Source: Halosegnis marinus (GTDB lineage: Archaea > Halobacteriota > Halobacteria > Halobacteriales > Haloarculaceae). From it: 64,000 bases of DNA. Of this stretch, positions 60,431 to 61,390 are shown piece after piece; position 1 is the stretch's first letter, and the number at the start of each line of letters is the position of its first letter. The stretch lies in the NCBI RefSeq assembly GCF_029338355.1, contig NZ_CP119802.1, positions 620,001 to 684,000 of the forward strand, given 5' to 3'. Both the position numbers and the translations under genes were made by a program. The notes under the pieces were generated by a model. The model did no database searches. It was not told where the DNA came from and was given only the letters and a program-made list of their open reading frames with translations.

Positions 60431-61219
60431 ATGGAAGCCATCGGCGGCGGACTGGCGACGCTCGACATCGACGACCACCGCGCGGACGTGACGCTCTCGC
60501 GGCCCGAGAAGCGCAACGCGATGACGACCGACCTGATGAAGGACCTCGCGCTCGCGCTCGAACGCGCCGACGCCCACGAGGACGTGCGGTCCATCGCCCT
60601 GCTCGGCGAGGGGCCGGTGTTCTGTGCGGGGATGGACCTCCACATGATGCGCAGCCGCGGTGACCCCGACTCGGGCGTCGAGCGCGACACCTTCCCCGAC
60701 CTGCTCGACACGCTCGACTCGGTGTCGGTGCCGACGGTCGCGGGCATCAAGCGTGCCGCGCCGGCCGGCGCGTTCGAACTCACCCTCCCCTGCGACTTCC
60801 GCGTGCTCGGGAGCGAGGCGACCTACGGCGTCATCGAGGTGAAACTGGGGACGTTCCCGCACGGCGGCGCGACCCAGCGGCTCCCGCGGCTCGTCGGGCT
60901 GGCGAAGGCGAAGGAACTCGTCCTCTCGGGTGAGTTCATCGACCCGGCGGAGGCCGAGGCCTGCGGGCTGGTGAACGAGGTCGTCCCCGACGAGGAGGTG
61001 GACGACGCGGCGCGCGCGCTCGCGGACTCGCTCGCCGAGAACGCCCCGCTCGGGATGGAACGGGCCAAGCGCGCGCTCAACGCCGCGCTCGACACGCCGC
61101 TCGACGAGGGGCTCCAGCTGGAGCGGGCGCTCGGCCGGGAGATAGACGACACCCACGACTACCGCGAGGGGTTCGAGGCGCGCATCGAGGACCGCGAGCC
61201 GACGTTCGAGGGCCGATAG
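60431..61219 (+). CDS. Enoyl-CoA hydratase/isomerase family protein
   Basis: This 262-residue crotonase-fold protein has [19 protein letters not shown] near residue 20 and the first oxyanion-hole segment [15 protein letters not shown] near residue 60. The second is [15 protein letters not shown] near residue 115. [21 protein letters not shown] supplies a catalytic-region Glu near residue 136. It lies alone, with no beta-oxidation partners nearby. Whether it acts as a hydratase, isomerase or decarboxylase is not decidable. The stop is followed by the structured RNA candidate. Confidence 0.88.
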
Positions 61220-61238: not shown

Positions 61239-61304
61239 GTGGGGCTGCGGCACGAGGTACGGGGGCACCTGCGCGGGGGAAGCGCAGTCGTGCCGCGCCC
61301 TCAC
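61239..61304 (-). ncRNA. Candidate structured small RNA (three-way junction with two C-rich loops)
   Basis: In the gap 61220-61390 bases fold into a compact structure. A basal stem pairs 61239-61241 with 61302-61304, 61242-61245 with 61297-61300, and 61247-61255 with 61288-61296 (nine perfect pairs). Two hairpins branch from it: 61270-61274 with 61282-61286, and 61256-61258 with 61267-61269. Read on the minus strand, both hairpin loops are C-rich (TTCCCCC and GCCCCCGT). A TATA box, CTAATATAAT on the minus strand at 61321-61330, lies about 22-25 bases before 61304, which fits a transcript starting at the base of the stem. I know no family that matches. The plus-strand reading would also fold, so the strand is inferred from the promoter. 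Confidence 0.5.
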
Positions 61305-61320
61305 ACGGCCTTGGCAGCCC

Positions 61321-61330
61321 ATTATATTAG
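61321..61330 (-). promoter_or_regulatory. TATA box, probably of the small RNA
   Basis: ATTATATTAG (plus strand) is the most A/T-rich box near here. On the minus strand it points at the structured RNA. On the plus strand it would start a transcript near 61352 for the membrane protein at 61391. Confidence 0.45.
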
Positions 61331-61390
61331 AACTTTCCATATGAAAGGAAGTCCCGAGCGGCTTTTGCCCCGCCGCTCCCAACGGAGGGC

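Follow-up and report, generated by a model that had tools for sequence, protein, structure and literature searches.

Two plus-strand genes, encoding an enoyl-CoA hydratase and a 75-aa predicted membrane protein (here P75, for which no Pfam family was found), flank a short gap near the end of the window, that is, the whole 64-kb stretch of DNA that was analysed. In this gap the minus strand carries a long stem, two elements with C-runs and TATA- and BRE-like boxes, and the plus strand a separate promoter-like box, as follows:

60431..61219, plus strand: enoyl-CoA hydratase gene, the convergent neighbour; other genes lie there in most relatives that keep the RNA
61239..61304, minus strand: predicted small RNA core, an outer stem enclosing two C-run-bearing elements (from sequence, folds and synteny)
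61304-61288 (5' arm) and 61255-61239 (3' arm), minus strand: arms of the outer stem (sequence and fold)
61269..61287, minus strand: inner hairpin CUGCGC-UUCCCCC-GCGCAG, with the loop C5 at 61279-61275 (fold)
61256..61269, minus strand: second C-run element GGUGCCCCCGUACC, with C5 at 61265-61261, a weak hairpin (folds)
61321..61330, minus strand (read 61330-61321): TATA box CTAATATAAT, its centre 25 nt upstream of the GGGC of the stem (sequence)
61333..61338, minus strand: BRE-like purine stretch GGAAAG just upstream of the TATA box, a presumed TFB binding site
61360..61369, plus strand: promoter-like box GGCTTTTGCC (CTTTTGC), about 25-30 nt before the P75 start; the same box is present at the related loci L075 and L076
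61391..61618, plus strand: P75 gene, divergent from the small RNA and the anchor for synteny

The outer stem pairs 61239-61255 (GTGGGGCTGCGGCACGA) with 61288-61304 (TCGTGCCGCGCCCTCAC) over 16 bp with two 1-nt bulges, so that the long and nearly perfect stem described in an earlier note on this DNA holds letter for letter. On the minus strand the element folds with -43.5 kcal/mol and a z-score of -4.0, none of 200 shuffles being as stable, and its 80-nt core reaches a z-score of -4.6, whereas the plus-strand fold is weaker (z of -1.85, and -2.3 for the 80-nt core). The earlier note also saw two hairpins with C5 apical loops in a three-way junction. The first loop is indeed UUCCCCC, but the second is CCCC, its fifth C being paired, and the two-hairpin junction applies to the minus strand of this copy and not to its relatives, in which the second hairpin is not kept and the corresponding C-runs (CCCCCCGUAACC, UGUUCCCCCCCACU and CACCCCAUGU) are unpaired in the folds. 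Counterparts of the inner hairpin were found by folding and hand alignment in four related genomes (G085, G087, G067 and G066). As modelled, the relatives keep an outer stem with a single hairpin, whose loop is C-rich, and a further C-run that is unpaired. Downstream of the window copy there is no clear T-run terminator in this genome.

The proposal that the TATA box is set for a start at the foot of the stem is sustained both by its 25-nt spacing and by the alignment of nine lineages on the first nucleotide of the stem, in which the A/T fraction is highest at position -25 (0.91) and rises again near -34 and near -46. Since this profile is the geometry expected of archaeal TATA and BRE elements, whose haloarchaeal motifs have been described (PMC4983044), the predicted start is placed at the stem foot. 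The box CTAATATAAT is identical in G085 and G087, the two closest relatives, which also keep AAAG from the BRE-like stretch, and similar purine stretches occur in most other members. P75 has its own box at 61360..61369, and therefore the box at 61321 is not needed for its expression. An A/T-rich patch about 46 nt upstream of the stem (approximately 61346-61350 in the window) recurs in related loci as ATTATTTC, ATAATTTC, TTAATTCG and TATTATCT, and is possibly a regulator site shared by the two divergent promoters.

A blastn search with the element across 146 genomes of the family returned chance-level matches only, and two 22-nt matches shared by G083 and G084 were discarded as lying beside and within an unrelated gene. 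With the longer version from G085, matches beyond chance were obtained in G085 and G087 only, and a TATA/BRE pattern scan over 392 genomes gave scattered promoters without the RNA. P75 occurs in each of the six genomes of the genus, in 114 of 146 in the family and in 260 of 392 sampled from the order, which made the gap upstream of it accessible in many genomes. In 12 of them, namely the window copy and eleven relatives, the stretch from P75 to the neighbouring upstream gene holds a stem with unpaired C-runs on its minus strand; the element is thus conserved at the same place by synteny, although blastn is blind to it. The members belong to this genus (G000, the window copy; G085, locus L075; G087, locus L076), to Halorarius (G067, locus L034; G066, locus L053) and to a Natronomonas-like group, in which seven genomes (G116, G117, G119, G122, G124, G127 and G131) carry a simpler form; in G133 the beginning of the element is visible and then the contig ends. 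Beside P75 it is absent from G083, G084 and G086 (three of the six genomes of the genus), from several Natronomonas-like genomes, from Haloarcula-like genera and others of the family and from 20 sampled genomes of other families; most of the family has P75 without the RNA.

Cultured carriers of the element include Natronomonas gomsonensis, Halorarius litoreus and Halorarius halobius. At L075 and L076 (1210-1405 on the minus strand in each) the predicted transcript is apparently longer (about 160-170 nt) and contains two additional hairpins, one with a GUGCCCCC loop and a T-run behind it; judged by sequence, the window copy seems shortened relative to these two.

The compensatory base changes that the earlier note proposed to look for are seen in the shared stems. 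In five genomes from two genera (G000, G085, G087, G067 and G066) the plan comprises an outer stem of 10-16 bp, a hairpin, another C-run, unpaired except for weak pairing at its edge in G000, and the closing strand, the hairpin loops holding five to six C (UUCCCCC, CCUUUGCCCCC, UCCCCCC and UCCCCC). In an N-padded, hand-made alignment of these five sequences, whose stems were misaligned by MAFFT, all 93 cells of 21 pairs are standard pairs and nine pairs show two-sided changes (16 cells), compared with 27-44% paired and zero to two two-sided pairs in slid controls. Four of the nine lie in the outer stem, the third pair for instance being G-C, A-U or U-A. The 5' arm of this stem aligns by sequence (GGxCGUUGGCC and similar), while the pairs of the hairpin are almost wholly different between lineages, which gives their covariation less weight than that of the outer stem. 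In the Natronomonas-like form there is a single stem of 8-9 bp, with C-runs in the loop (CUCCCCCACCCACCCC) or just after it (ACCCCCCACCCCCACCCCCC); the aligned stems show one two-sided change, from GGUGCCGG/CCGGCACC to GGCGCCGGG/CCCGGCGC (U-A to C-G), and one one-sided change (C-G to U-G), and the long C-runs are kept.

The same alignment bears on the strand. As minus-strand RNA, 13 of the 93 cells are G-U wobbles; read from the plus strand they would become A-C mismatches, and this favours the minus strand. A plus-strand feature of the upstream gene, such as a 3'UTR hairpin, a terminator or a G-quadruplex, of which the C-runs would be a mere complement, could draw on the fact that the plus strand also folds well and carries G-runs, and in G124 and G127 it is very G-rich downstream of the stem. 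We consider this reading very improbable, given these mismatches, the TATA spacing, which lies on the minus side of the element in all lineages, and the upstream gene, which is not the same gene across relatives. A 3'UTR or terminator of the enoyl-CoA hydratase gene was ruled out in particular, because the neighbour differs between lineages and most relatives have no enoyl-CoA hydratase there; in G085 and G087 this gene is missing at the locus and the minus strand still has the CTAATATAAT box, its spacing and the C-rich hairpin RNA.

As a separate observation, none of the other five genomes of the genus has a close homologue of the enoyl-CoA hydratase (best identity about 39%), which is about 75% identical to Halorarius copies that also lie near P75; the gene may have been lost from the sister genomes or acquired by this one through transfer. 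In G124 and G127 (loci L142 and L146) the C-rich tail immediately after the stem faces at least four plus-strand runs of G5-7 with short spacers, which by their sequence would be able to form a DNA G-quadruplex.

Tests of homology tie the copies together in steps. With the promoter left out, similarity of the RNA region exceeded that of dinucleotide shuffles for G000-G085 (p 0.005), G085-G067 (p 0.002) and G067-G066 (p 0.003), which together connect the window copy stepwise to Halorarius, and direct comparison of G000 with G067 or G066 was not significant against the same shuffles. A leave-one-out covariance model of the other four sequences (R2) did not find the window copy with default filters and scored it at 7.7 bits (E of 6.6) in a short search without filters; membership of the window copy therefore rests on place, promoter, plan and similarity to G085, and not on a blind model match. 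The five-genome form is linked to the Natronomonas-like form by place, promoter and plan only. A further covariance model (R1), run over the family with strict filters, found only its two Halorarius training copies, and as R1 is weak and these filters strict, there may be copies away from P75. Apart from a downstream tRNA-Ser, the element and the 11 related loci matched no Rfam model at its curated threshold, including the archaeal SRP, RNase P, snoRNA-like and tRNA models, in agreement with the earlier impression that the element is unlike known archaeal RNA classes.

Folding is common in the GC-rich intergenic gaps of haloarchaea, and blastn and the leave-one-out model find nothing, as might be expected if such a gap merely happened to lie beside an unrelated A/T-rich box. 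To us this coincidence is scarcely credible in view of the z-scores of -4 to -4.6, the covariation and two scans. When an A/T-rich 8-mer was required to have, 20-31 nt further on, a stem of 8 bp or more that encloses or adjoins an unpaired run of C4 or more, a criterion chosen after the members were known and thus a measure of rarity rather than of blind discovery, only this place matched among 94 boxes tested on both strands of the 64 kb. A mechanical scan of 89 regions upstream of P75, in the family and other families, recovered all 12 called members and none of the 77 others, again by a post hoc criterion. In shuffled sequences the architecture arises in 6 to 36 per 1000, depending on the sequence.

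The earlier proposal of a structured minus-strand small RNA with its own TATA box is thus supported, as a prediction with transcription deduced from the promoter, by its conserved place and compensatory changes; the outcome that the note had named as refuting, with neither conservation nor covariation in related species, did not occur. The element, conserved in eleven relatives despite letter changes, is probably functional, and it is very likely, judging from these comparisons, to be a real minus-strand RNA gene. We name this candidate non-coding RNA gene, which would run from 61304 down to about 61230 on the minus strand, the "P75-adjacent C-loop RNA". Its TATA/BRE promoter would direct transcription from the stem foot or a few nucleotides from it, and the long closing stem would display a hairpin loop rich in C and one more C-run that is unpaired. 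Sequence comparison supports place, strand, promoter spacing, fold and C-runs. Like all its relatives it lies as a minus-strand gene between P75 and the upstream neighbour, with a TATA-like box about 25 nt before a stem of 8 bp or more that has unpaired C4+ runs, two features by which we propose to recognize the family.

A local effect in cis, with transcription from this promoter or the RNA itself acting on the divergent P75 gene or the convergent neighbour by antisense or interference, would suit an element that is always divergent to P75 at a similar distance, that in the window converges on the enoyl-CoA hydratase gene and whose A/T-rich patch around -46 could serve both promoters. We nevertheless find it improbable, since most of the family has P75 without the RNA, the neighbour on the other side varies by lineage and interference needs no conserved fold with C-runs. 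Moreover, dyad symmetry ahead of the TATA box, as for a shared operator, was not significant (p 0.046 in one of nine sequences and at least 0.15 in the rest).

For the mode of action we lean slightly towards a lineage-specific trans-acting small RNA whose C-runs pair with G-tracts. In known small RNAs the usual partner of C-rich loops is G-rich mRNA, and FsrA and RoxS of Bacillus are examples of small RNAs with C-rich motifs. In IsrR of Staphylococcus, single-stranded C-rich regions in the loops of stem-loops pair with and reach Shine-Dalgarno sites (PMC9410917). The element resembles IsrR in its stable stems, in its several single-stranded C-runs (4-7 nt), placed in loops or beside stems, which the predicted folds leave unpaired, in a predicted stand-alone promoter and in its poor conservation outside the C-run plan; it differs in its archaeal promoter, in having no sequence or synteny relation and no canonical terminator hairpin, and in a host group largely without Shine-Dalgarno pairing. 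The suggestion that the loops pair with ribosome binding sites found no support, as transcripts of Haloferax volcanii are mostly leaderless and Shine-Dalgarno initiation is not used in its 5'-UTRs, while its reading frames hold many SD-like motifs (PMC3986360). If pairing occurs, G-tracts within genes or at 3' ends would therefore be likelier targets, and binding of the C-runs to G-rich tracts of several mRNAs, in coding regions or 3' ends, would lower their translation or stability.

That the RNA acts by base-pairing of its C-runs is, by analogy, a proposition for which we see the chances as even. Stem letters and loop flanks change between lineages and the C-runs persist, so far as the sequences tell, as the only conserved part of the loops, which is weak evidence for specific antisense pairing. 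The main rival, and a strong one because only the C-runs are kept, is a decoy for a protein, in which the stem would offer unpaired poly-C as a docking site or sponge without mRNA pairing. The number of C-runs and their position (loop, internal or 3' tail) vary among members, and such variation is more easily reconciled with a low-complexity protein site than with a specific antisense seed; on the other hand, no haloarchaeal poly-C-binding protein was identified in this analysis and the precedent of C-rich loops favours mRNA, and we hold the decoy to be unlikely, if a serious contender.

Compared with archaeal precedents, the predicted RNA is similar to sRNA154, sRNA41 and sRNA162 of Methanosarcina mazei in being archaeal and intergenic and in exposing loops, through which these trans-acting RNAs work (for sRNA154, reviewed in PMC5867862), and trans action is proposed here by analogy. 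Those are methanogen RNAs with known regulation and ribosome-binding-site targets, and neither sequence nor neighbourhood showed any relation. Of the hundreds of small RNAs that haloarchaea express, few, to our knowledge, have a conserved fold or known mechanism. The Haloferax intergenic small RNAs (sRNA132 and hundreds from RNA-seq) share with the element, itself predicted from sequence, a haloarchaeal origin and their own promoters; they differ in that no homology was seen and P75 homologues sampled in other families lack the element. In the Haloferax small-RNA literature we found no description of its fold together with the C-run plan.

Tentatively, then, the element may represent a new archaeal RNA family confined to the Natronomonas/Halorarius branch of the Haloarculaceae, presenting unpaired poly-C, its one strongly kept feature, on a freely rewired stem and serving as a multi-target riboregulator or a protein sponge in cells where the Shine-Dalgarno site, to which such loops normally bind, is largely unused. 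It can be traced through about a dozen species in several genera with a start predicted to within a few nucleotides, and it carries the sharp prediction that the C-runs are the working part of the RNA; if this is true, it would be a model for the action of C-rich small RNAs without Shine-Dalgarno initiation. The comparison also indicates that synteny combined with promoter geometry can find small RNAs that are missed by blastn and covariance models.
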